A stretch of DNA of 50,524 bases. It comes from an uncultured Eubacteriales bacterium (GTDB lineage Bacteria > Bacillota > Clostridia > Lachnospirales > Lachnospiraceae). The notes under the pieces were generated by a model. It did no database searches and was not told the DNA's origin. It was given only the letters and a program-made list of their open reading frames with translations. Location: assembly GCA_900314525.1 (NCBI GenBank), contig OMVN01000017.1, forward strand, positions 1-50,524, written 5' to 3'. Positions 10,560-23,706 of this stretch are shown here, one piece after another. Within the stretch, counting starts at the first letter, position 1. Each line of letters opens with the position of its first letter. The position numbers and the translations under genes are program-made.

Positions 10560-11516
10560 TTAAAAATATACTAGTTCGTCTTCTGGTTTCTCTGTCTTTG
10601 ATGATTCTAAAAGATAAAGTACCGGACCCTTACCTCTGTACTCTTTCACAAATTCTCTCTTGACTTTTGCAAGTACATTGACCCATTCCTTATCCTGATA
10701 ATCAGCAGAAATTCCATTTGTGCACTTACACAGAATTCCCATAAACTGTATATCATCAGCACAGCATGTCATTGCAAATCTACCTGGAACGAAGCAATTT
10801 GATGGAAATTTTGGAGGATTATAAACCTGTGCATTGAATCTTACAACTTTTCCCTCATACTTTTTAGGGTTGTCCATAGCATCCATATACCAGATTCCAA
10901 AATCATCATTATCAATTTCAATTATATCTGCATCGATATCAAACGGAAGTTCTTCTTCCTTTAATGCATCTTCAAAACCTTCAGCTGCCTCATATCCAAT
11001 TTGGGCTTTTTTATTAAATAACTTTACGTTTCTTCTGAATTCATTTCTCTTTGTCTTGTCTGTACATCTATTTAAAATCACCATATCCGAAAGCGAAAGC
11101 TGCTGCATTAATAATGATCTCATATTTGTCCAGTAAGAATCAATAGTTGTTGCATCAACTGTAGAAATAACCTGTGCTAAAATCCAGTCTTCAGGCATAT
11201 TGTCTTCATCAACTGGTTCTAAATCCCACATTCCATTATATTCAATCATTACTCTTTCTGGTTTGTGGAAATCTTCACATTTCTGAAAAAATTCTTTTGT
11301 AAGACTTTCTTTTTCCTCAATGTGCTCAAAATATATATTTTTCTTTACCATTTCAACTTCATCATATTCCTCAATTCCCTCTTCACAGAGAATTACAAGT
11401 GTCTTCTCTCCTCTGTGAAATCCTTTGTCACATAGGGTATCTCTGATAAAGCTTGTCTTTCCACTCTCAAGTATTCCAGTAAATAAGTAAACTGGTACTT
11501 CTCTTTTATTGCTCAT
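10560..11516 (-). CDS. G3E (COG0523) GTPase fused to a DUF1980/YcgQ-like domain
   Basis: A 318-residue protein. Residues 1-180 are a CobW/COG0523-type GTPase: Walker A GILESGKTS near 13-21, a Glu-rich switch region (CEEGIEEYDEVEM) and a base-specificity segment ILNRCTD. Instead of the CobW C-terminal domain, residues ~200-318 resemble the C-terminal part of the YcgQ/DUF1980 (TIGR03943) family: YEGKVVRFNAQVY, then RFAMTCCADDIQFMGILC, then EWVNVLAKV. In Bacillus-type genomes YcgQ-YcgR are separate proteins near metal-stress GTPases, so the fusion supports a metal-handling role; that is inference. The GTPase lacks the CxCC metal motif of its upstream neighbour. It lies 38 bases after that gene and is probably co-transcribed. 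The ribosome site is weak (AAAGG, long spacing). Confidence 0.72.
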   Translation of the reverse strand: MSNKREVPVYLFTGILESGKTSFIRDTLCDKGFHRGEKTLVILCEEGIEEYDEVEMVKKNIYFEHIEEKESLTKEFFQKCEDFHKPERVMIEYNGMWDLEPVDEDNMPEDWILAQVISTVDATTIDSYWTNMRSLLMQQLSLSDMVILNRCTDKTKRNEFRRNVKLFNKKAQIGYEAAEGFEDALKEEELPFDIDADIIEIDNDDFGIWYMDAMDNPKKYEGKVVRFNAQVYNPPKFPSNCFVPGRFAMTCCADDIQFMGILCKCTNGISADYQDKEWVNVLAKVKREFVKEYRGKGPVLYLLESSKTEKPEDELVYF

Positions 11517-11554
11517 ATTATATACCGGCCTTTCTCGTATTACCGTTTATTTAA

Positions 11555-12598
11555 TTATAGTAAAAACAGGTCTTTTAATTTATCTTCAGCAGGATTTGTT
11601 CCGATTACGCAGATTCTTCCTGTGTAATCCGGCTGTCCATCTCTGAGCTCATATTCACCAGGAACAAGATCAAAATAAATCCATGTCTCTTCAGTTGATG
11701 GAAGCATTCCCTTTGCTCTTAAAATTGTGCCGTACTCATCTGTATTAGCAAGTTTGTCAAGGGCATTCTTAACCTCATCTTTTGTATATTTTCTAGGTGT
11801 CTCAATACCCCAGCTTGTAAATACATCATCTGCATGATGGTGATGATGATGCTCATGATCATGGCATCCACATTCGTGGTCATGATCGTCATGATCATGG
11901 TGATGGCATTCGTGCTCATGATGATGATCATGATCATGGTGATGGCCGCATTCAGGACATATATCTTCTTCTGCTAATAATTCATCTGCAAGTGAGCCAG
12001 ACTGTTCCATAGCTTTTAAAATAACTGATCCGTCTATTTCATCCCAAGGTGTTGTTATTATCTTGGCATTTCCATTATGCTCTTTTAACAGTTCAACAAC
12101 TCCTTCTAATTTATCTTCTTTTAAGCTCTGTGTACGGCTGATAACTATTGTTCCTGCGCTCTCAACCTGATTGTTGAAGAACTCTCCAAAATTCTTCATA
12201 TACATTCTTGTCTTGATTCCGTCAACTACTGCAGTTGTGCTATTAAGAGAAATCTGGTCTCCCGTTTCTTCTACAATATTGTTAACTGCCTTTATTACAT
12301 CTGATAATTTACCAACTCCAGATGGCTCGATAATTATTCTGTCTGGTGAATACTTATCTATTACTTCCTTTAATGATGTTCTAAAGTCTCCAACCAGTGA
12401 ACAGCAGATACATCCTGAGTTCATCTCTGTAACCTGAACTCCAGAATCTTTTAAAAATCCACCGTCTATTCCAATTTCTCCAAATTCATTCTCTATTAAA
12501 ACTAATTTTTCTCCGTTAAAAGCATCTGCTAATAGCTTCTTAATAAGTGTTGTCTTACCTGCACCCAGAAATCCAGATACAATATCAATCTTAGTCAT
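11555..12598 (-). CDS. CobW/COG0523 G3E GTPase with His-rich metal-binding tract
   Basis: A 347-residue G3E GTPase of the COG0523 group (YciC, ZigA and ZNG1-like metallochaperones). Visible motifs: Walker A GFLGAGKTT at residues 9-17, the switch segment IENEFGEIGIDG, the metal-binding CICC near 63-66, and IEPSGVGK as Walker B region. A tract of about 45 residues near 218-262 is almost entirely His, Asp, Glu and Cys, including a CPECGHHH start and a run of six His. A CobW C-terminal domain follows, with GMLPS and WIYFDLVPGE. Such proteins load or buffer zinc and are often induced by metal limitation. The sequence alone cannot decide between zinc, cobalt and nickel. Promoter and a palindrome overlapping its -35 are visible upstream. 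Confidence 0.87.
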   Translation of the reverse strand: MTKIDIVSGFLGAGKTTLIKKLLADAFNGEKLVLIENEFGEIGIDGGFLKDSGVQVTEMNSGCICCSLVGDFRTSLKEVIDKYSPDRIIIEPSGVGKLSDVIKAVNNIVEETGDQISLNSTTAVVDGIKTRMYMKNFGEFFNNQVESAGTIVISRTQSLKEDKLEGVVELLKEHNGNAKIITTPWDEIDGSVILKAMEQSGSLADELLAEEDICPECGHHHDHDHHHEHECHHHDHDDHDHECGCHDHEHHHHHHADDVFTSWGIETPRKYTKDEVKNALDKLANTDEYGTILRAKGMLPSTEETWIYFDLVPGEYELRDGQPDYTGRICVIGTNPAEDKLKDLFLL

Positions 12599-13547: not shown

Positions 13548-14438
13548 TTACAGCTTCTGAAACTTCATATGTTTTCCTATTTCAATTAATTTAGCATCAC
13601 TGCCATGTCCAATATCCATTGTTCGTGCCACAGGAATATCATTACCAGCAACTTTCTGGATTAATTCCTCCACTGAAGGAATAAATATTTCCGAATCAAG
13701 TTTTGTAAATGTTCCCAGCAATATTCCATTTATTTTTTCAAAAGCCCCTAATTGCTTAAGCTGGCATAAATATGTCATAACCTGAGCAGATGACGAATTA
13801 AGTGCCTCAAGTAAAAGAATTTTTCCCTCAAAATCTGGCATATATTTTGTTCCAGCAAGTTTTAGAAAGCATCTGATATTTCCTCCTATTATCTCCCCTT
13901 CCATATATGTCTCCTGTATGAAATAATAAGAAATATCTGCTAAATTATCTTTTTCTTCACTAAAAGTCTCTATAAAATCACGTTTTTGATTTCCTGTCTC
14001 ATCATATATAAGATTTTTTATCTGATATAAATATGCATTTTCACCAGTCATTGTGTATATTGCATTTATAACTGTAGTGAGATCACTATATCCAAAAAAT
14101 GGTTTTTTACTATTTTTAATAATCTCATAGTCAAGATAGTCCAAAACCTCATTGGCAATATCTCCCCCTGAAATATCAAAAATACCACTTACATTTTCAT
14201 CCTTATAGGCATCCATCAGGGCCATAGCCCTCTCCACGCCTGTACCGCTAAAATATGAATCTTTTTCATATAGAAAATCAGAACATTTAACCTTGTAACT
14301 ATTTTCTTCCAGATATTCTATTAAACTATTAATCTTTGTATCATTAGCTCGTGATTGGCCGTTAGAACACGCAACCAGTGCAATGGTACTTCCCTTTTCT
14401 AAAATCATATTAAGTAAATCCTCCATATCAAAGGCCAT
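13548..14438 (-). CDS. S66-family peptidase (LD-carboxypeptidase / MccF-like)
   Basis: A 296-residue protein of peptidase family S66, which includes cytoplasmic muropeptide LD-carboxypeptidases and microcin C immunity hydrolases. The Ser nucleophile is in FGYSDLTT (Ser118), the Glu of the triad probably in LLLEALNSS, and the His in DIGHGSDAK near the C-terminus. Length and order fit the family. The ATG at 14438 overlaps the end of the ECF transporter gene by 11 bases and has AAAGGA upstream. An internal ATG at 14408, preceded by GGAGG at 11 bases, gives a start closer to relatives (MILEKGSTIALVA), so either is possible. The overlap implies co-expression with B12 import. A link to corrinoids is not known for this family; it may be a passenger, or clip an amide or peptide. 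Confidence 0.8.
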   Translation of the reverse strand: MAFDMEDLLNMILEKGSTIALVACSNGQSRANDTKINSLIEYLEENSYKVKCSDFLYEKDSYFSGTGVERAMALMDAYKDENVSGIFDISGGDIANEVLDYLDYEIIKNSKKPFFGYSDLTTVINAIYTMTGENAYLYQIKNLIYDETGNQKRDFIETFSEEKDNLADISYYFIQETYMEGEIIGGNIRCFLKLAGTKYMPDFEGKILLLEALNSSSAQVMTYLCQLKQLGAFEKINGILLGTFTKLDSEIFIPSVEELIQKVAGNDIPVARTMDIGHGSDAKLIEIGKHMKFQKL

Positions 14439-16806
14439 ATTTTTCCTTTACTCTGTCGATTTTTTCAATCATTACCTGTGATAATAACATAGTATATGCA
14501 AAAGAGGCAATACCCTGGGTAATATCCATTGGCAGTCCAGCTGCATAATAAGAAACAAGGACAGCTCTGCTAAGTCTTACACGCGACATCAGAGCCGCAG
14601 CAGGATTCATTATTAGACCATATATTAGTATTGGTGCTAAAAGGCTGTAGAATGAAAGTAAAAACCTGCCTGAAATTGTATTATAAAATTTATTTTTTCT
14701 GAATCTAACAAACATTATTCCAGAAATAAATCCAGTTATCCCCATAGCAAACATCTGCCACGGTGTCCAGGGTCCCTGTCCGAATAACATATTTGATACT
14801 ATCATGGTAATCGCTCCAACAAGAAATCCCCCCTCCGGGCCTAAGCAGACTCCACATATTATTACTATAGTAAATACTGGTTTAAATTCAGGGAGCATAT
14901 AAAAAACCGCTCTGCTTGCAACACATATGGCACTTAATGCTGATATGAGCACAATCTGCCTTGTATCTTTGCCATTTTTCTCAAACATTATAAAAAATGG
15001 ACACATACATTCTAGTACAATCATAAGTGAAATAAATAAATACTTTTTGTCATCAATCAAGTACATTCCTGCAAAAATTGTCAAAGGTACTATAAGTACA
15101 ATAAAAACGAGTGACATAAATCCCAAAAAAGATATACTCTTACTATTGTGATTTATAATGTATTCAGGCTCTTTATTATTGATGTTTTTTTTTATGTATT
15201 TTCCTTTATCTCTAAGAAAACCTACTACGTCTTCCTTTGTAACTGCATTAATCAAAATATCTCCAGCAATTCTGTTTGAAATTGTGGTATAAAAATTATT
15301 ATTGGTAAAAAATTCTCTTGTGTTATTCCTTACAATAATATCCCCATTAAACATCAGCGCACACTCCAGTGTCCACTCACCGCAAAACTCTGTATCGTGA
15401 CTTACTATAACAATTGTTTTACCCGCTTCATTGAGTTTGTAAAGGAGTTTTCCAAACTCACTTTTAAATTCATTGTCCATTCCCTTTGTTGGCTCGTCAA
15501 ATAGAAGTAATTGGGCATCTGTTAATAGAATTTTTGCAAGTCCTGCCCTCTGTCTCTCTCCGCCTGATACGTCATAAATATTTCTGTCAAGTATATTCTC
15601 AATATTACAAAGCTTGATTACCTCATCAGTCTTATCCGATTTCATTTCTGCAAGTTCTTCATAAATTGTATTTTTTACAAATAGCATTTCCGGTTCCTGT
15701 GGCAGCATAGCAATTTTTACATCATTTCTGTTTACTATTTTACCACTATATTGTTTTTGGAGTCCTGCAATTACAGATAGTAATGTACTTTTTCCAGTAC
15801 CATTTCCTCCTAAAATTCCAAGTATGGTTCCATCTTTAATATCGAGGTTTACACCTTCTAGCACATCTCTTGATTTTCTATCATACCTGTAGTAAATATC
15901 TTTTACCTTTATCAGGATATCTTCTTTCTCATCACTGGTTTTCTCGTCATATACATAATATTTATCAGTTACATTCTCATTGCATTTTAAAAACCAGTTT
16001 CTTCCATCCCTAACTGTGAGTGGACAAAAACTATTCTCATAACCAGACTCAATGTAAATCTGTGAGGGAATTGGCATAGATTTTATTAGAGAATTATTAT
16101 CACTCTTCAATTTCAGACAGACATTTTCCGGATTATCATCAATAATTATATTCCCCTTTTCCATTACAATAACTCTGCTGCTATATGGAAGTATCTCATC
16201 TAATCTGTGTTCTGCGATAATAATAGTAACCCCGAGATTTCTATTTATTTTTAATAACATATTTATAAAATCTTCTGCTGCTATTGGATCTAACTGACTT
16301 GTAGGTTCATCAAGGACTATTACCTCAGGCTTCATTGTCATAATTGAAGCAAGTACCAGAAGCTGTTTTTGTCCTCCTGACAACTCAGAAATGTTTTTAT
16401 CAAACATAGACTGCATTCCAAAAAATGATGCCATTTCTGCAACTCTTAATCTTATTTCATGAGAATCAGTGCCCAGGCTTTCAAGGCCAAATGCAAGTTC
16501 ATGAAACACTTTATCTGTTACTATCTGATTCTCCGGATTTTGTGATACAAATCCAATTCTGGATGTCTGTATATATTTATCAGTTTCTGACAAAGCTTTA
16601 CCTTGAAACAAAATATCCCCTGTTTTTTCACCATAAGGACTTATAGCAGTCTTTAAATGTCTGAGAAGTGTGGTTTTTCCACATCCTGATTTACCACACA
16701 CTGTTATAAATTCTCCCTGTTCAATATTTAGATTTATATTATTCAGTACTGGTTCATTCCCCAGATTATATCTGAAACTTAAGTTTTTTATCTCTAATAT
16801 ATTCAT
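14428..16806 (-). CDS. single-chain ECF transporter: ATPase-ATPase-S component, predicted cobalamin uptake
   Basis: A 792-residue fusion. ATPase 1 (about 1-245) has Walker A GKSGCGKTT, signature LSGGQKQ and Walker B VIVLDEPTSQLD. ATPase 2 (about 295-515) has GGNGTGKST, VSGGERQ and LLLFDEPTKGMD. Both nucleotide sites look intact. The last ~230 residues hold about six membrane helices with the ECF S-component look: GGFLVGAITMIVSNMLFGQGPWTPWQMFAMG. ECF importers take up vitamins using an S component, a T component and two ATPases; here three of the four parts are one chain, and the T component is the upstream gene. Specificity for cobalamin is inferred from the riboswitch and DUF4430 neighbours, not from the S domain itself. 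The ATG overlaps the upstream stop as ATGA, suggesting translational coupling. Confidence 0.85.
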   Translation of the reverse strand: MNILEIKNLSFRYNLGNEPVLNNINLNIEQGEFITVCGKSGCGKTTLLRHLKTAISPYGEKTGDILFQGKALSETDKYIQTSRIGFVSQNPENQIVTDKVFHELAFGLESLGTDSHEIRLRVAEMASFFGMQSMFDKNISELSGGQKQLLVLASIMTMKPEVIVLDEPTSQLDPIAAEDFINMLLKINRNLGVTIIIAEHRLDEILPYSSRVIVMEKGNIIIDDNPENVCLKLKSDNNSLIKSMPIPSQIYIESGYENSFCPLTVRDGRNWFLKCNENVTDKYYVYDEKTSDEKEDILIKVKDIYYRYDRKSRDVLEGVNLDIKDGTILGILGGNGTGKSTLLSVIAGLQKQYSGKIVNRNDVKIAMLPQEPEMLFVKNTIYEELAEMKSDKTDEVIKLCNIENILDRNIYDVSGGERQRAGLAKILLTDAQLLLFDEPTKGMDNEFKSEFGKLLYKLNEAGKTIVIVSHDTEFCGEWTLECALMFNGDIIVRNNTREFFTNNNFYTTISNRIAGDILINAVTKEDVVGFLRDKGKYIKKNINNKEPEYIINHNSKSISFLGFMSLVFIVLIVPLTIFAGMYLIDDKKYLFISLMIVLECMCPFFIMFEKNGKDTRQIVLISALSAICVASRAVFYMLPEFKPVFTIVIICGVCLGPEGGFLVGAITMIVSNMLFGQGPWTPWQMFAMGITGFISGIMFVRFRKNKFYNTISGRFLLSFYSLLAPILIYGLIMNPAAALMSRVRLSRAVLVSYYAAGLPMDITQGIASFAYTMLLSQVMIEKIDRVKEKYGL

Positions 16807-17693
16807 TTATTTTTATCCTCAGGTTTGTTTTTAAATTTAATTCTGAATTTCAATTCTATTATAAGCGGGATTATACATAATATAAAAAATACTACATAAG
16901 TTATACACATAAAAACACCAAATAAGTCATCGGAAAAAGAAGGATAGTATCTGTATTCTAATTTTTCATTCATTGCTCCCCATACTATTATTACAATTGA
17001 TATTAACATGTAAACAAAAGGTCCCATATCTCTGCTGGTAAATTTATACAGACTAAAAGATGTTCTTCCTCTTAGTCCATATCCCCTGTCTTTCATGGAG
17101 TCTGATGTCTCTATAGAATTTTCCAAAGACCAGGAAATCATTGCTGATAATATTCCTGCAAAATTTTTTATTCTGGGAAAATATCTTCTCTTTCCACACT
17201 TTAACTGATTATCTCTGTATTTTTTTAATTCACGAAATCTCTTCGAAAATCTGTCAACATATCTGATTGTCATTGATAATACCAGACTAAAAGATGGCAT
17301 TATTCTACCAAACAGATAAAGAAACTTATCACTGGTAATGACTTCATTATAACACTGAAACCACTGGATTACTGCCATAAACAATAATGCCATAAATATT
17401 CCAAATATAATAGCCTCTTTTGTCACCGGATTTCCAATCCTGTTATAAAATAAAATTGTCACACCCTGATGATTAAACAATGGATTCGTTATACCAATAA
17501 GTATGGCAATTATCATAACATATCTTATTGATTTAAGAGTTTTTCTTACTCCTTTTAAACTAATCAGATAGAAAAGCGAGCACACAAAACTAATTACTAT
17601 AAATGCTGGATGATACATGAAAATACTAATAATCAGAATTGCTGTGAAATACATAAAATTGACAATGGGATGGTATTCCCTGAAATGATTCAT
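16803..17693 (-). CDS. ECF transporter T component (EcfT/CbiQ family)
   Basis: About 296 residues with five to six predicted membrane helices. The N-terminus YHPIVNFMYF is typical of the family. The long cytoplasmic coupling helices contain SMKDRGYGLRGRTSF near residue 220, the conserved Arg-Gly coupling motif that contacts the ATPases. Its partner ATPases and S component are fused in the next gene, with which it shares an ATGA overlap. A longer frame begins at a GTG (17720). The ATG at 17693 is better: it starts one base after the upstream stop, has GGAAGGA ahead and matches the family N-terminus. Together with the next gene it would complete an importer. Confidence 0.87.
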   Translation of the reverse strand: MNHFREYHPIVNFMYFTAILIISIFMYHPAFIVISFVCSLFYLISLKGVRKTLKSIRYVMIIAILIGITNPLFNHQGVTILFYNRIGNPVTKEAIIFGIFMALLFMAVIQWFQCYNEVITSDKFLYLFGRIMPSFSLVLSMTIRYVDRFSKRFRELKKYRDNQLKCGKRRYFPRIKNFAGILSAMISWSLENSIETSDSMKDRGYGLRGRTSFSLYKFTSRDMGPFVYMLISIVIIVWGAMNEKLEYRYYPSFSDDLFGVFMCITYVVFFILCIIPLIIELKFRIKFKNKPEDKNK

Positions 17694-17694
17694 T

Positions 17695-18669
17695 CTAACT
17701 AATATCCTTCCCAAGGTCACATGTATACTCCCATTTAATTACATCGCCTTTATTTACTTTAATCTCTGAACTTCCATAGTTATAAAATTTCCCATTTACG
17801 CTATACATCCAGCCAGACAGACTTCCACAGTCAAACTCATATATATTTTCTATGCCCTCTACATAATTACTTCCGTATAAAGGTGTATAAGAAAATTCCA
17901 TTGGAATCTTCTGATTCATGCAAACTTTTTTCAGTACATCAAACACAGTATCTCCTTCATTGTATTCGTATTTTGTAGACTTCAAAATATAACCATCAGA
18001 TGGAACAATATCCTTTTTCTCCTTCTTAAGAGCACCCATATTGTTTAGAATTGTCCTGCAGGAAATTGATATTGTACATTCATTTGCCACGGACTGACTA
18101 GTCCCTGTATTTCTGCCATCACTATTTGAAGATCCTTGATTATTTACCCCACCAGTCCCTGATGTATTTCCTGTATTTTTATTTTCTATAACTTCTGATC
18201 CGCTATTTTCCGAATTATTACCTGCATCATTTCCAGTAATCTGAGTATTTCCCTTATCTACAAAACTGCTTTGTTGTGTTATATTCCCTTCGGTATCATC
18301 TTTTGTGCTGTATATTACACTATCTTTATCACTGGTATCATTTAACTCTGTTAAATCAGAATCATCAGAAGATGACATGTTTTGAACTGTTTCCTCTGTT
18401 GAAGCATTGCCATCTTCAGGATTTTCTGTTGTCTGTTGTTCATTTACTGATGTTTCTTCCTGTGTAGTTTCTGATAATGTTATGTTCTCACTTAGAATGA
18501 CATCCTTAGACTTAGCTGATGTTGTATTTTCTATATCATGTAATTTTTTCGATTTATTCTTACTTAGTGGTTCACCTGCAAAAAAGGCTATACATAAAAT
18601 CACTAATACTGTTAGAACAGCTGCTATTCTCTTTTTATTTTTCAATATTAATTCCTTTATTTTATCCAT
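17695..18669 (-). CDS. membrane-tethered DUF4430 (transcobalamin-like) corrinoid-binding candidate
   Basis: A 324-residue protein with an N-terminal membrane helix (about 13-31, RIAAVLTVLVILCIAFFAG) and no lipobox Cys, so it is a single-pass anchor or signal. A Ser/Thr/Asn/Asp/Glu-rich linker follows, to about residue 200, and then a C-terminal DUF4430 domain (about 205-324). DUF4430 (Pfam PF14478) is related to the C-terminal beta domain of transcobalamin and intrinsic factor. Visible here: GDTVFDVLKKVC, the hallmark SGWMYSVNG near 285, and GDVIKWEYTCDLG at the end. The long flexible linker would let the domain reach through the wall toward the importer. It lies between the wall-anchored DUF4430 protein and the T component, so a relay role is proposed. 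Good ribosome site AAGAGG. Confidence 0.82.
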   Translation of the reverse strand: MDKIKELILKNKKRIAAVLTVLVILCIAFFAGEPLSKNKSKKLHDIENTTSAKSKDVILSENITLSETTQEETSVNEQQTTENPEDGNASTEETVQNMSSSDDSDLTELNDTSDKDSVIYSTKDDTEGNITQQSSFVDKGNTQITGNDAGNNSENSGSEVIENKNTGNTSGTGGVNNQGSSNSDGRNTGTSQSVANECTISISCRTILNNMGALKKEKKDIVPSDGYILKSTKYEYNEGDTVFDVLKKVCMNQKIPMEFSYTPLYGSNYVEGIENIYEFDCGSLSGWMYSVNGKFYNYGSSEIKVNKGDVIKWEYTCDLGKDIS

Positions 18670-18702
18670 TTCTTACCTCTTTTTCATGAACATAGTTAAA
18701 AT

Positions 18703-18729
18703 TTCACCGCCAGCATTGCCAGCGGTGAA
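18703..18729 (-). other. intercistronic hairpin in the cobalamin operon
   Basis: A perfect 8-bp stem TTCACCGC/GCGGTGAA, extendable inward with wobble pairs, lies just after the stop of the giant surface protein and before the DUF4430 gene. It is followed on the minus strand only by ATTTTAACT, so termination would be weak. It could set a high ratio of surface protein to transporter. Confidence 0.5.
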
Positions 18730-18735
18730 TGTATT

Positions 18736-21700
18736 TTATCTTATTGTTTCTTTTTTCTTCAAAATCACTATAACAGCTGCTGCCACAACAAATAATAACA
18801 TATATTCAATGTAATTGTCATCACCTGTTTTTGGAGTTTTACCTGTCTCAGCCTTTAACTGATTATTATCTGACTGTAAAGCCTCTCCCTGTGATGTTTC
18901 TGTTTCAGCATTATTTCCTGAGACTATCTGAGCTGTAATTGCTTTACCTGTGTCTTGTGGCATAAAATTGATAACTGGATCTGTATTAGATTGATCATCT
19001 GATGGTATCAAACCATTATTATTGTTTTCAATATCATTATCATTATTATTTTCATTTTCTGTGTTACCTGAATTGTATTCTATAACAGTATTATCTACAT
19101 CTTCCATATCATATAATCTGCTCTCCTCATTACAGAATCTGTAATATGATACCATTGCTAAATATGCCTGTTCTGTAGACATCTGATTAGCCGTTGCTTT
19201 CATTCTTGCCCCACTAATTCTCTCATGATAGAATCCGCCATTACCTGCATAGAAATTAAGTAAAGCAGAATATACAGATGTTCCATTCTTTATAAATCTC
19301 TCATCTGCTGAAGGATTAATATTATTTGATGTAAGTGAAATTACTACCTGTGCAGTTGATTCTGCATTTGCAGTTCCATTCTCACCAAAGCTACCATCAT
19401 CATTCTGTACATTTGATAAATATTCAACCCCTGAATTTATAACTTCTGCATATTCTTCATAAGGTGCAAGTGCCTGAATTGCCATTGCTGTTATATCAAT
19501 ACTTGGTGACTCACCATCAAGAGTAAATGAGCCATTTTCCATTCTTGCAGAAAGAATATTATTTATAAGAATTTCTCTTGTTGTTTTATTTTCAGTCGAA
19601 TCGTTTTCTGGAACATTATAGTTTCTTGTATCTAACGCAATCAGTGCAAAAATCGAGCCATTAACTCCCTGGTTTGAAACATAATCAACATCTGCTAAAG
19701 GATTAAGAAGATTATTTCCATTTACCTTCTGAGCATCAACTCCAAGTGATGAAAGAGCAATTATCGCTCTTGAGTTTTCTGTTGATTTTCTGTTACTTAG
19801 TTTTTCAGAACCCACAGTTTGTATATATTCACATAGATTTTTATAATATCCGTTCTTGAACTCATCACTTATTTTGCCTGCTCTTGCAAGACCTGTTATA
19901 ATCCATTCACCTCCTACAGATGAAACTAAAGGTGTTTCCCCATCTAAAAGTGCATTTGTAGTCTCCTCAAAAATATTCTGTGATTTTTCAGTAACTTCTG
20001 CTTTTAAATGAAGTATATATATTACAGGTGCTTTTTCTCCATTCTGCACTAATACTCTTACTGTTTTTTCACTTCCATTCAGATTAATAACCACATTGCC
20101 ATCGGCAGCAATCTTTTGATTATTTACATATATATTATCTTCAGAATCTGCACCTCTTAGACTGATAGTGAACTCTTTTGAGTCATTTAACGAAACATCG
20201 TAAGTACTCTTGTCATTTTCTATGGCAACTTCATTTTCATTACCAGAATTATCTGAGATTATAACACTTTCTATATCATTTGTAATTGATACATCATTTC
20301 CTGATTTTGTAGTTCTTACAACGTATCCAACCTCTGTTGATTTTTCTCCAAATGCTCCAGCCCATATATTTGAAGCTGTAGAAACCTTTATGTAATGGAT
20401 TCCATTAGGTAATTCCGCTGGATTTCCATTTTCATCTACTGCAAGACTTAAATCAAATCCATTAGAAGCTTTTCTTCCATCATAAGGATTTACATCTGCT
20501 CCGATTTTTCCGTTACTACATACATCACTGTATCCAAAGGATGGATATGTTGCAAATGCTGATGTTGTGTCATTTCCATAAAGTGATCCATCCTTCGCTT
20601 TAAGAAGAGATGCATTAATTGTTATTTCGTCGTTTCCTGCAAGTTTATTCATGTAATAAACTGATGCCTGTGGCCATAAACCTGATTTAGTTTTTCCATC
20701 ATTTGAACCACCCTGATTATCTGTCCATGCAGTTTTACCATCTGCTGTTTTAGTATAAGTAATCTGATAATTATTTATAGAAGCATCTTCATAGTACTCC
20801 GATCCTGCAATCTGATACCATGTATTTCCATCTTCAGAAACATATACAGTACCTGGTTCTGCAAAGCTTTCGCTTCCCATTGAATTTCCATATACATAGA
20901 AATCAACACCATACATATTTTCAGGATCGTTTATGATTGGATTATCATAATAATATGTAATGTATCCTCCAAAGTTACCAAGTGATGTTATATTTCCAGC
21001 CAATGTACCAAGTGGATTATTTCCGTATGGTGCTCTATCAGTATACTGACTATTTAAGCACAGATAATCAACAACTTTATCTGGTACATCATAGGCACTT
21101 TTTCTTATTATTTTAAATGAATAGTTATTTTCTACACCGTTATTTTTTATGTTTACTACATTCTTACCAGTTTTTAAATCTATGCTATACTGGTTATTGT
21201 TGTTGTCAAGAGCATTATTATCAAATGTAACCGATGCTCCTTCAGATGTTTTAAACCCTAAAGTTGGGAGTTCATCTTCATGACCTACTACAATTTCGTA
21301 ATCATATTTGTTTTTATCAAATTCAGGATAAATATCACCTGTGTTTAAATTCGCACTTTCAATCTGTGCAGAAGCAATATCTGATGTAGACTTTATTACG
21401 TTTAATGTATAAAAAGTTCCATTTTCTGAAGCATTGTCAAATCCATTTTTTGTATACTCATCATCTGAAACTGTGCAAATATTAATCTTGACACTGTCTT
21501 TGCCATTAAAGCTTATCTCTTCAGTCTGCTGTCCGCTGGCTACTTCTTTAGCTTCTTCTGACTCTGCGTTATATCTTATATGAACATAATTTGTCTTTCC
21601 CTTAAGAGTGAGAGTAAACTTATCTGCATCTTCAAAAAGATATGTCTCAAAATTATTTTCATCAATTTTGTTTACTGTTCCCTCTTTAATTCCATTGACA

Positions 21701-22911
21701 GCTGTAGGATACAACTCTCTGCCTGACGGACTGATTGCAACACCATTATTTGTATTTAATTGATTACTTGTATCATATGGTCTGTTAATATTTAAAGTAT
21801 ATACTTTTTCATTATTTCTATTGTTTAAATCATATATTTTTATTTCTACTTTATTCTGTCCAAATGCCAGTGATTTGATATTTGTATTCTTTCCGCTTAA
21901 AACAGGGATAGTATTATCATTTCCATCGCTGTCCTTATAACATAATTCAGCACCATATTTTGTATCATCAAATTTTGTCTGGGAATTTATCATTACTGCT
22001 GATGTAGAATATGCTTTTATATCTATATTATATTCTGTTTTTGACTTATCAAAGCCATCCCATCCGTTTACTGCAAATGAGGAGATGTTAAAATTATCAA
22101 AATCAGGATTTGAAACTTCATCTTTTGCAATAGTTACAGTATAAACTGATTCATTCTGTCCATAGTTCATTGTTGGCCAACTTGAATTACCAACTCCAAC
22201 GTAAATCTTATCACCAGGCTGAATATCAACATACTGAGATCTCTTTATTCCAGGATTTTCTGGCTTGTATTCATTTTTATAAATTCTAGCCTGAAAATTT
22301 CTATTTACTGCAGATGGAGTAACTTTTATCTTATCAACATCACTTCCTACAGTTAATGTATAGTTCTTTACACCTGAGCTAAATGTTTCACTAAGTACCC
22401 CATCAGAAAATGTGAGATTACTTAATGATGTATCATTTTTGTCCCACATACTTCCAATATCTGCACCCCATGCACATGAGTATTCAATACATATTTCATC
22501 ACCATCACTAAGTGAACCATCTGCGGTTTTAAACTGAGTTCCTGCTGCATTAAGCATCCAGTCATTCAGACTTATATTAAATCCGCTCATGCTTCCTCCG
22601 TCCATTTCATTCAAGCCATTTATCTCTGTCACATAGCCAGTATCCGCTCCTGTAATAGAATACCCGCTTGACTTAACGGCATCCGAAATAGATGAAAGAA
22701 CGTTAGACTCACTGTTTAAACTTACTTCTTTATCTAAAAGTAATCCATCCCATTTCGCACCATCTTCTGTCTTAAAAGTATTATTTCTAACAATTACTCT
22801 TACTGTACCATAAGTAATTTCAGTCTCTGCAAATGTTATTCCCTGGAAATTTAAAAATACCAATGTAAACATCAGCAGAAACGATATCACTTTTTTAAAT
22901 TTTGTCTTCAC
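18736..22911 (-). CDS. giant wall-anchored protein with DUF4430 and alpha/alpha-barrel domains (intrinsic-factor-like)
   Basis: 1391 residues. A signal peptide (1-28) is followed by DUF4430 (about 30-155: SGFNISLNDWMLNAAG, DEICIEYSCAWG) and several cadherin-like beta-sandwich or Ig-like segments (about 160-620, e.g. LSNLTFSDGVLSETFSSGVKN). A beta-rich surface domain (about 625-860; YGVDFYVYGNSMGSESFAEP) and another Ig-like segment (about 885-980) come next. The alpha/alpha-toroid like terpenoid cyclases and the alpha domain of intrinsic factor spans about 1000-1265 (QNDDGSFGENG, ESTAQVVISLTSN, GNGGFYH). An Asn/Asp-rich linker and a sorting signal end it: TPKTGDD, a hydrophobic helix and KKK. 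TPKTG is a variant of LPXTG. Start is GTG with GGAGG 9 bases upstream, overlapping the small gene before it by 17 bases. Corrinoid binding is inferred from domains plus the riboswitch. Confidence 0.83.
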   Translation of the reverse strand: MKTKFKKVISFLLMFTLVFLNFQGITFAETEITYGTVRVIVRNNTFKTEDGAKWDGLLLDKEVSLNSESNVLSSISDAVKSSGYSITGADTGYVTEINGLNEMDGGSMSGFNISLNDWMLNAAGTQFKTADGSLSDGDEICIEYSCAWGADIGSMWDKNDTSLSNLTFSDGVLSETFSSGVKNYTLTVGSDVDKIKVTPSAVNRNFQARIYKNEYKPENPGIKRSQYVDIQPGDKIYVGVGNSSWPTMNYGQNESVYTVTIAKDEVSNPDFDNFNISSFAVNGWDGFDKSKTEYNIDIKAYSTSAVMINSQTKFDDTKYGAELCYKDSDGNDNTIPVLSGKNTNIKSLAFGQNKVEIKIYDLNNRNNEKVYTLNINRPYDTSNQLNTNNGVAISPSGRELYPTAVNGIKEGTVNKIDENNFETYLFEDADKFTLTLKGKTNYVHIRYNAESEEAKEVASGQQTEEISFNGKDSVKINICTVSDDEYTKNGFDNASENGTFYTLNVIKSTSDIASAQIESANLNTGDIYPEFDKNKYDYEIVVGHEDELPTLGFKTSEGASVTFDNNALDNNNNQYSIDLKTGKNVVNIKNNGVENNYSFKIIRKSAYDVPDKVVDYLCLNSQYTDRAPYGNNPLGTLAGNITSLGNFGGYITYYYDNPIINDPENMYGVDFYVYGNSMGSESFAEPGTVYVSEDGNTWYQIAGSEYYEDASINNYQITYTKTADGKTAWTDNQGGSNDGKTKSGLWPQASVYYMNKLAGNDEITINASLLKAKDGSLYGNDTTSAFATYPSFGYSDVCSNGKIGADVNPYDGRKASNGFDLSLAVDENGNPAELPNGIHYIKVSTASNIWAGAFGEKSTEVGYVVRTTKSGNDVSITNDIESVIISDNSGNENEVAIENDKSTYDVSLNDSKEFTISLRGADSEDNIYVNNQKIAADGNVVINLNGSEKTVRVLVQNGEKAPVIYILHLKAEVTEKSQNIFEETTNALLDGETPLVSSVGGEWIITGLARAGKISDEFKNGYYKNLCEYIQTVGSEKLSNRKSTENSRAIIALSSLGVDAQKVNGNNLLNPLADVDYVSNQGVNGSIFALIALDTRNYNVPENDSTENKTTREILINNILSARMENGSFTLDGESPSIDITAMAIQALAPYEEYAEVINSGVEYLSNVQNDDGSFGENGTANAESTAQVVISLTSNNINPSADERFIKNGTSVYSALLNFYAGNGGFYHERISGARMKATANQMSTEQAYLAMVSYYRFCNEESRLYDMEDVDNTVIEYNSGNTENENNNDNDIENNNNGLIPSDDQSNTDPVINFMPQDTGKAITAQIVSGNNAETETSQGEALQSDNNQLKAETGKTPKTGDDNYIEYMLLFVVAAAVIVILKKKETIR

Positions 22912-23164
22912 TTTTTTTGTCCTCCTTGTATTTTTTTCTTAGTCTCTCCCTTTTTAGCCTGTTCCTTTCCCTCTTGTCAGTCTCAGGTCCCGATTTTAAT
23001 AAAGCCGCTTCTAAAGCTCTTGGCCATGGTCCAAGTTTCTGCTTTATAAAGCACACGTCATCAGAATTAAAATCCTCTTTCTTAGGGAGTCTTGAATAAT
23101 TAAGCTCTCTGCTTTTATTCTGCAACAATTCAATTGCCCTCTGTCTCTTCAAATCTTTCTCCAT
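22895..23164 (-). CDS. small protein with a homing-endonuclease-associated-repeat-like domain
   Basis: An 89-residue, very basic protein and the first gene after the cobalamin riboswitch. Residues ~20-50 (SRLPKKEDFNSDDVCFIKQK, then a G-W/P-ALEAA segment) match the pattern of the homing endonuclease associated repeat (HNH_repeat, PF18780), a short helical DNA-binding module. The rest is charged, with a Lys/Arg/Glu-rich helical tail (RERNRLKRERLRKKYKE). There is no nuclease motif. The longer frame from 23200 is less likely because GGAGAAGGA lies 6-7 bases before the ATG at 23164. The stop overlaps the start of the giant surface gene by 17 bases, implying coupling. Role unknown; autoregulation of the operon or DNA binding unrelated to B12 are both open. 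Confidence 0.68.
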   Translation of the reverse strand: MEKDLKRQRAIELLQNKSRELNYSRLPKKEDFNSDDVCFIKQKLGPWPRALEAALLKSGPETDKRERNRLKRERLRKKYKEDKKSEDKI

Positions 23165-23210
23165 GATATATCCTTCTCCAAAACTATCATTAGTACACAT
23201 AAATACAAAA

Positions 23211-23377
23211 ATGCACTTGGCTCATCGTTTGCTGTATGCAAGCATTCGTTCTCACTTGGCTCATCGTTTGCACTTACAAACTCACTTCATCAGCTCGAAT
23301 AAATTCTCGCTGATGTACGTTCGCCAAATGAGAACCTGTATGCAAGCATCCGTTCTCACTTGGCTCATCGTTTGCAC
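23211..23377. repeat. dispersed direct and inverted repeats between riboswitch and first gene
   Basis: Two 40-base direct copies (23234-23273 and 23338-23377) differ at one base. A partial third copy of the CACTTGGCTCATCGTTTGC core starts near 23213. An inverted partial copy, GCCAAATGAGAAC (23323-23335), faces GTTCTCACTTGGC (23353-23365) and could form a hairpin. The 64 bases between the full copies are unrelated. The block is more GC-rich than its surroundings and sits inside the 5' untranslated region. It looks like a small interspersed repeat family, but origin is unknown. Confidence 0.8.
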
Positions 23378-23407
23378 AAAAAAACAGTTGTGCAAAATGC
23401 ACAACTG
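23378..23407 (-). terminator. riboswitch-controlled intrinsic terminator
   Basis: Minus strand: perfect 10-bp stem CAGTTGTGCA/TGCACAACTG with a 3-base loop (23385-23407) followed by seven T (23378-23384). The 5' arm plus flanking AATT (23399-23411) can instead pair with an upstream segment (23480-23492) at 12 of 13 positions, giving an antiterminator. This is the expression platform of the cobalamin riboswitch. Confidence 0.85.
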
Positions 23408-23520
23408 AATTAAAACCCTGCGTATAAATGCAGCGTCACTATATTATGACTTATGAATCCCAAAGTCTGATATTTTTATAATTCGGTTGTGCTCTCTTCT
23501 CGTCCAAAAAAGCCAAATCT

Positions 23521-23632
23521 TTTATATATGGGAGTATTCTGGCTCATGGCATAATGCCAAATACAGTAATGACGGTTGCTCCGGACTCTCACCGGATTCC
23601 CAATTACCTACTAAATTCGAACCATATATAAA
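23521..23632 (-). ncRNA. cobalamin riboswitch (compact form)
   Basis: Read on the minus strand, the aptamer is closed by an 11-bp P1 pairing (23622-23632 with 23521-23531, TTTATATATGG/CCATATATAAA). Inside are the conserved cobalamin core words GGGAATCCGGTG, AGAGTCCGGAGCAACCG, ATTACTGT and the B12-box-like GAGCCAGAATACTCCC. The length of about 112 bases, without large peripheral arms, suggests a class II aptamer rather than the larger class I; ligand preference (methyl-, hydroxo- or adenosylcobalamin) cannot be told. It is followed by an expression platform (23378-23520) with mutually exclusive terminator and antiterminator helices, so bound cobalamin should switch the B12 capture operon off. 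Confidence 0.9.
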
Positions 23633-23656
23633 TCATTTTTGTTTTTAACACAAGTC

Positions 23657-23685
23657 ATTATAATTATAAATGTTTATATTGTCAA
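23657..23685 (-). promoter_or_regulatory. consensus promoter of the cobalamin capture operon
   Basis: Minus-strand TTGACA (23680-23685), 17-base spacer and TATAAT (23657-23662), a full consensus match. Transcription would begin near 23650, just ahead of the riboswitch, so control is expected to be mainly at the RNA level. Confidence 0.88.
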
Positions 23686-23706
23686 TGCAAACAGTCCATC
23701 CAGAGT

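Follow-up and report, generated by a model that had tools for sequence, protein, structure and literature searches.

A cobalamin riboswitch operon for probable surface capture and ECF-type import of corrinoids in an uncultured Lachnospiraceae bacterium

Operons for vitamin B12 scavenging have been predicted for Gram-positive bacteria by Burroughs et al. 2007 (PMC1796856; statements on cited papers refer here and below to excerpts of them). These operons combine transcobalamin-like domains, fused to alpha/alpha toroids and provided with Gram-positive anchors, with another extracellular paralogue and genes resembling CbiO/CbiQ, and they usually occur in genomes without B12 synthesis enzymes. In transcobalamin itself, the toroid and a beta-grasp domain sandwich B12 (PMC1796856), and DUF4430 has been placed at the C-terminus of transcobalamins in a paper on vertebrate B12 binders (PMC4350170). 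On the import side, CbrUVT is an existing transporter name (PMC6593275, PMC6722938, PMC8123684), used also in gut-genome surveys (PMC6593275, PMC8123684), and the structure 6FNP represents ECF-CbrT, an energy-coupling factor (ECF) transporter of cobalamin and cobinamide in which the S component has a nanomolar Kd for cobalamin (PMC5997447). Here we analyzed a stretch of 50,524 nucleotides (contig OMVN01000017.1, assembly GCA_900314525.1; hereafter the window) from an uncultured Eubacteriales bacterium of the Lachnospiraceae, which carries on its reverse strand an operon with a cobalamin riboswitch, two surface proteins and an ECF transporter (Table 1). It is very probable that this operon is repressed by cobalamin and serves scavenging, with corrinoids captured at the cell surface in the fashion of transcobalamin and imported by a CbrT-type ECF transporter. 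The succession of aptamer, wall protein, membrane-tethered DUF4430 protein, EcfT and ATPase-ATPase-S fusion, as reported in an initial annotation of this DNA, was confirmed, with a consensus promoter ahead of the aptamer.

Transporter cargo, leader RNA and host genes

Corrinoid import by the transporter is strongly supported by its sequence relationships. As annotated initially, two ATP-binding cassette domains and an S domain form one chain next to a T component, which was assigned by homology: Pfam gave no match for EcfT, the NCBIfam CbiQ model (TIGR02454) stayed far under its cut-off, and the assignment relies on the similarity to a Latilactobacillus gene with the annotation ECF component T, in a tiny comparison for which bits were used. 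In a phmmer search of 177,635 distinct PDB sequences, 6fnp_A was the sole significant match of the S domain (E value 3.5e-9; next match 0.15), and a 38-row profile of the domain found 6fnp with 7.9e-21, the riboflavin uptake protein RibU with 3.8e-5 and 4hzu_S with 9.6e-5. Like CbrUVT, the transporter of the window has an S component whose nearest relative of known structure is CbrT, together with a T component and a pair of ECF-type ATPases. A transporter for cobalt or another vitamin such as riboflavin, with surface proteins that bind something else, could be considered as well, given that Pfam labels this S domain ECF-ribofla_trS (2.1e-13) and that the ATPases resemble CbiO. However, the nearest solved relative is CbrT and not RibU, the cobalamin riboswitch and DUF4430 are found within the same operon, and the host genome has no CbiC, hence de novo B12 synthesis would not profit from imported cobalt. 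This alternative is highly improbable, and riboflavin and cobalt were rejected as cargo on the basis of the CbrT-like S domain.

Riboswitch control of the operon, as stated in the initial annotation, is supported by an aptamer that exceeds the RF00174 gathering score of 31.5 bits and covers the full-length model (1-189), and by a mutually exclusive terminator/antiterminator geometry. No other RF00174 match was found in the whole 2.36-Mb genome. In minimum-energy folds, the expression platform alone (-32.0 kcal/mol) formed the antiterminator, and aptamer and platform folded together formed the terminator hairpin (-13.3 kcal/mol for the hairpin alone), the 5' arm of the terminator pairing with either side. 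Among 19 hand-picked loci, terminator-like hairpins were found 55-160 nt 3' of the aptamer in 15 including the window, two of them weak. Upstream complementarity to the terminator arm extends over 7 bases in the window, compared with 0, 5 or 6 bases in the 14 other hairpin loci, hence the antiterminator is shown for the window only. Just 3' of the terminator, two exact copies of a 25-bp repeat are located (23227-23375, reverse strand); comparable stretches occur at G000:C50:30178-30352 and, in shorter form, on C19 and C36, which marks it as a small dispersed repeat. Bacillus sp. REN16 (L155:661-1224) has cobalamin aptamers as a tandem pair ahead of the operon.

The gene content of the host was analyzed with Pfam. 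No CbiC, the only marker of de novo synthesis examined, and no FecCD-type permease were found in the own genome. The B12-binding domain PF02310 gave three matches, two of them over cut-off, and one of the latter proteins reads, by its motifs, as the methionine synthase MetH. Hence, the genome is without the de novo marker and without BtuC-type import, yet it has a B12 enzyme. The operon is probably the main corrinoid importer of the cell, supplying at least MetH. Collectively, the CbrT-like S domain, the cobalamin riboswitch and the host gene content lend good support to the corrinoid cargo and the ECF import proposed initially.

The survey of co-occurrence that the initial annotation had suggested was performed in a family sample of 200 genomes including the own one. 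Strong matches to the fusion were found in 42 other genomes, giving 43 loci (G098 counts twice); this set was picked by hand among the matches listed, by ATPase part, S part or both, and weaker matches, some near DUF4430 (G017, G139, G195), were left out. With hits counted on the contig of the fusion only, DUF4430 was found on the same strand between 12 kb upstream and 6 kb downstream of the fusion in 40 of 43 loci, at 0.85-1.13 kb upstream in 31 and downstream in 3; at least two DUF4430 were present in 14. In 22 of 41 loci (G197 and G089 are outside this count), a same-strand cobalamin riboswitch was located upstream at a distance of up to 15 kb, compared with ~0.18 expected at random; 20 of these matches were over the gathering score, with G188 and G134 below it. 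CbiC was found in 9 of the 43 fusion-positive genomes (42 relatives and the own one) and in 109 of the 157 others (Fisher p 1.5e-8, kinship ignored), i.e. in 118 genomes after the weak or fragmentary matches of G016 and G166 had been subtracted from a tally of 120. An early Rfam scan of 30 loci with 1.5-kb flanks gave one riboswitch; these flanks were too short, therefore 20-kb stretches were taken for the Rfam scans.

An S-domain alignment scan of a genome collection yielded at least 594 confirmed relatives, the best 80 of which were kept as named loci and include records from Blautia, Paenibacillus, Bacillus, Fusibacter and Pelotomaculum. On the same strand of the examined stretch, EcfT was found in 72 of these best 80 loci, DUF4430 in 62 and the toroid in 52. 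Rfam scans of 16 of them showed that a cobalamin riboswitch precedes the operon genes in 11 but not in the other 5; seven of eight were positive among the loci chosen for the small gene described below, and four of eight among the others, mostly named cultures. Three close S-domain relatives (L130, L131, L140) are placed on contigs with the titles Actinomycetes, Nitrososphaerota archaeon and Paludibacteraceae, which may reflect binning error or transfer.

Surface proteins and the pairing of toroid and DUF4430

The tethered protein carries its DUF4430 domain (PF14478, E 2.4e-20) behind a single hydrophobic segment and a linker composed to 75% of S, T, N, G, D, E and Q, in line with the initial description of a membrane-tethered domain on a long flexible linker. 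The wall protein has a hydrophobic N-terminus (residues 8-26) and ends with a putative sorting signal, in which an LPXTG-like motif (TPKTGD) is followed by a hydrophobic stretch and a basic tail; the Pfam search did not report Gram_pos_anchor in the window protein, and the same-genus orthologue scored 19.4 against a cut-off of 20. Likewise, the N-terminal DUF4430-like domain was not reported by the Pfam search of the window copy. It was recognized by its match to the tethered DUF4430 (E 6e-8; as this is a single comparison, the bit score is preferred), and in the same-genus orthologue DUF4430 exceeded the Pfam cut-off (5.2e-10). The spacer contains three stretches of PF12733 (whole-protein E 6.2e-14). 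The toroid matched SQHop_cyclase_C (Pfam, 0.003) and SCO2321 (NCBIfam, 2.3e-10), both below cut-off; in the same-genus orthologue Prenyltrans was just over it (26.7 vs 26.5), and 28 of the 40 relative loci contained a match to the toroid piece of the window. With a C-terminal toroid and an N-terminal DUF4430, the wall protein holds both domain types of transcobalamin. The initial annotation of a wall-anchored protein with a transcobalamin-like domain agrees with the DUF4430-like domain and the putative sorting signal, but had missed the toroid.

The distribution of both domain types was analyzed in 120 loci selected by the transporter, namely 40 family stretches and the 80 named loci, with profiles to which some of these loci had contributed and with some stretches ending at contig ends. 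DUF4430 was found in 100 and the toroid in 80 of these loci, and all 80 toroid loci also had DUF4430. At least one chain bearing both domains was present in 43 of the 80 (28 with DUF4430 first, 15 with the toroid first); in L133, the toroid of a 441-aa protein is directly followed by DUF4430. The remaining 37 loci have toroid and DUF4430 on separate chains only, all of them with a DUF4430 gene that lacks the toroid. This cis/trans split is new as far as our searches show. It suggests that the B12 clamp may close between two proteins, and the 37 loci offer a clean test of such a clamp in trans.

It could be argued that the main role of the wall protein is that of an adhesin or of a terpene-cyclase-like surface enzyme which shares the riboswitch by chance, and that B12 uptake is achieved by the tethered protein and the transporter alone. 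Such roles would fit the large cadherin-like spacer, the PDB matches of the toroid profile, which are squalene-hopene cyclases and not transcobalamin, and the 40 of 120 loci without a toroid in the examined stretch. However, the toroid is always accompanied by DUF4430 on the same or another chain, which is the transcobalamin pairing, and L133 joins both in one protein. Moreover, in the toroid columns aligned to the DxDD motif of the cyclases, the first position is variable and the last one hydrophobic in most rows. Hence, we consider a wall protein outside B12 uptake improbable.

The cyclase matches and the loci without toroid also count against transcobalamin-like capture coupled to CbrT-type import in general, as do several further observations. 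Searches of the PDB with the wall protein, the tethered domain, the toroid, DUF4430 and toroid-DUF4430 retrieved no transcobalamin or intrinsic factor chain, and the DUF4430 profile likewise found no transcobalamin there. DUF4430 was absent from the examined stretch in 20 of 120 loci, no riboswitch was found within 15 kb upstream in 19 of 41, and nine fusion-positive genomes do possess CbiC. A PduO-type adenosyltransferase was not found in the own genome, the CobA/BtuR and EutT types not having been searched. The same-genus relative is one of the four loci among the 19 compared in which no terminator-like hairpin was found 3' of the aptamer. Furthermore, the claim of a single transcript in the initial annotation is weakened by a possible attenuator inside the operon, the hairpin between the wall and tethered genes. 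Finally, one review links cbrUVT to the uptake of cobyrinate diamide (PMC8123684), hence precursors may be cargo, too.

Small gene and flanking genes

A small gene precedes the wall gene. Its product scored 25.0 bits with PF18780 (HNH_repeat) at a cut-off of 26, and five of five orthologues tested were above this cut-off with 33-50 bits. The gene was found in 9 of the 200 family genomes (E 1e-5), all nine being fusion-positive (Fisher 4.8e-7, kinship ignored). In seven of the nine, the match starts 112-313 nt 3' of a cobalamin riboswitch, including G098 and G108, where both lie on a different contig from the fusion; in G188 it is located between the wall and tethered genes and in G030 downstream of the ATPase gene. 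Among the named loci with a match, seven of eight have it after a riboswitch, and in L141 a DUF4430 frame comes before it; the remaining one (L108) has a weak match and no riboswitch upstream. Substitutions were fewest at the second and most frequent at the third codon position in six of six pairs, a coding pattern. The likely ribosome-binding site of the wall gene lies inside the 3' end of the small gene, which may therefore act as a regulator or as a leader gene coupled to the wall gene. The literature search gave no paper on this small protein, and its gene, usually right after the riboswitch, is new as far as the searches show.

Regarding the gene overlaps mentioned in the initial annotation, the one of 26 nt between the tethered protein and EcfT requires a GTG start and vanishes with the ATG at 17693. 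An LD-carboxypeptidase gene, unmentioned by that annotation though inside its span, is probably co-transcribed with the operon, yet it stands outside the conserved system: it was found beside the operon in one of the 40 family stretches, the same-genus one, and in none of the 80 named loci. LD-carboxypeptidase, PdaA and CobW were rejected as parts of the system since only the same-genus stretch has them next to the operon; for PdaA and CobW this is based on the 40 family stretches. Two CobW-type GTPase genes lie near the operon (10560-12598, reverse strand), one with a His-rich stretch and the other with a DUF1980_C domain, and CobW matches are also close to the same-genus operon (L033:16073-18345).

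Table 1. Coordinates of the operon features in the window.
Feature	Position	Strand	Evidence
Promoter TTGACA-17-TATAAT	23657..23685	-	12/12 consensus positions; consensus match only
Cobalamin riboswitch aptamer	23513..23641	-	RF00174, 41.4 bits, E 3.9e-7
Antiterminator 5' arm GCACAACCGAATT	23480..23492	-	partner 23411-23399 in minimum-energy fold, expression platform alone
Intrinsic terminator, 10-bp stem + T7	23385..23407	-	5' arm common to antiterminator
Small gene, 89 aa, HNH_repeat-like core and basic tail	22895..23164	-	17-nt overlap with wall gene
Wall protein, 1391 aa	18736..22911	-	open reading frame; same-genus orthologue 1255 bits
N-terminal DUF4430-like domain, wall protein (approximate)	22432..22821	-	33.9 bits to tethered DUF4430
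Cadherin-like domain, best of three (spacer region)	22129..22425	-	PF12733
Alpha/alpha toroid, wall protein (approximate)	19042..19809	-	SQHop_cyclase_C and SCO2321 matches, sub-cut-off
Putative sorting signal: TPKTGD, hydrophobic stretch, KKKETIR	18739..18837	-	sequence and hydropathy
Hairpin between wall and tethered genes, possible attenuator	18703..18729	-	12 bp, weak T tract
Membrane-tethered DUF4430 protein	17695..18669	-	transmembrane segment 15-33, linker 35-190, DUF4430 239-316
EcfT	16803..17693	-	TIGR02454 3e-4, below cut-off; 118 bits to annotated ECF component T
EcfA-EcfA'-S fusion	14428..16806	-	PF00005, two stretches; S domain 15006-14431, CbrT-like
S66 LD-carboxypeptidase	13548..14438	-	PF02016 5.4e-31, PF17676 9.1e-27; 11-nt overlap with fusion

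Proposed route and comparison with known systems

The route that we propose starts at the leader RNA. At low cellular corrinoid levels the antiterminator would form and permit read-through, and at high levels the aptamer would favor the terminator; the exclusive pairing is computed and the switching is deduced from the RNA elements. Judged from their domains, the wall protein and the single-pass DUF4430 protein would then capture corrinoid outside the membrane in transcobalamin fashion. From there it would reach the CbrT-type S domain, which is fused to both ATPases and is expected, by homology with a proven B12 transporter, to act with EcfT in import. Corrinoid binding by the DUF4430 proteins and a three-stage relay from the wall to the membrane, as envisaged initially, are putative, as are the direction and order of a hand-off from wall to tether to S domain. 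As a variant compatible with surface capture and ECF import, the two surface proteins might represent independent B12 reservoirs without staged hand-on. This is a real possibility, if not one that we lean to: nothing in the sequence indicates transfer and the wall and tethered DUF4430 domains are diverged (26% identity), but in 31 of 43 loci the tethered DUF4430 gene precedes the fusion at a distance that roughly equals the length of EcfT, and the linker of its product could extend into the wall, for which the NEAT-domain haem relays provide a parallel. A more far-reaching idea, tentative and rather unlikely in our view, is a split surface transcobalamin, in which the wall toroid and the tethered DUF4430 would clamp one B12 in trans and the clamping itself would be the hand-off; fused (L133-like) and split forms would be two layouts, and the HNH-repeat protein, probably nucleic-acid-binding, would add a second and so far unreported layer of control.

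The window system makes the prediction of 2007 testable. With at least 594 S-domain relatives, it may represent a major B12 route in Clostridia and Bacilli without B12 synthesis. The system also has a bearing on bacterial competition for B12 and on the proposal that animal transcobalamin originated in bacteria. Transcobalamin and intrinsic factor place toroid and beta-grasp around B12 as assumed here (PMC1796856), and L133 shows the same domain order. In contrast, the wall protein of the window has the reverse order with ~880 residues in between, and no significant sequence match to a transcobalamin in the PDB. A B12-binding test of any bacterial DUF4430 protein was not found in our literature search, which was mostly without subscription papers.

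A similar set of genes is found on the Latilactobacillus curvatus plasmid p1_CACC879, where an LPXTG toroid protein, a DUF4430 protein, EcfT, ATPase and S component follow in the same order as in the window; there, however, the toroid protein shows no DUF4430, ATPase and S are separate, and no riboswitch exceeded the gathering score in the 12.6-kb stretch. In Bacteroidetes, BtuG and BtuH capture B12 at the surface before import. The lipoproteins of these systems reside in the outer membrane and belong to other domain families (PMC12751083, PMC13398666); the window system works in a similar way, but is not a member of them. On the Lactiplantibacillus plantarum plasmid pMF1298-5, CbrV-CbrU-CbrT have been named (PMC6722938), and the record shows a DUF4430 gene and a lectin-annotated gene beside them. 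The latter, a "fucose-binding lectin II" (L156:6650-7702), matches the toroid profile with 59 bits and is probably misannotated. In a proteome annotation of Lacticaseibacillus rhamnosus, an "additional lipoprotein component" of a putative cobalamin ECF transporter appears together with a DUF4430 protein (PMC9963975), which already ties an extra surface component to this transporter type. The low-GC Gram-positive SLBB systems of the 2007 paper share the transcobalamin-like beta-grasp domain, the toroid, a putative wall anchor, the second extracellular paralogue, CbiO/CbiQ, a host that mostly has no B12 synthesis and the scavenging prediction; the excerpts of this paper, which remains at the level of prediction, describe no riboswitch, CbrT identity or small HNH-repeat gene (PMC1796856). 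The CbrT-type S, T and ATPase genes resemble ECF-CbrT and CbrUVT (PMC5997447; PMC6593275; PMC6722938); CbrT of Lactobacillus delbrueckii transports B12 and cobinamide and uses an ECF module in common with other S components, whereas in the window both ATPases and S form one chain beside the T gene. Hence, the initial statement that no such system had been described does not hold: the system is known in kind from the prediction of Burroughs et al. 2007 (PMC1796856), and its transporter is of the CbrUVT type.

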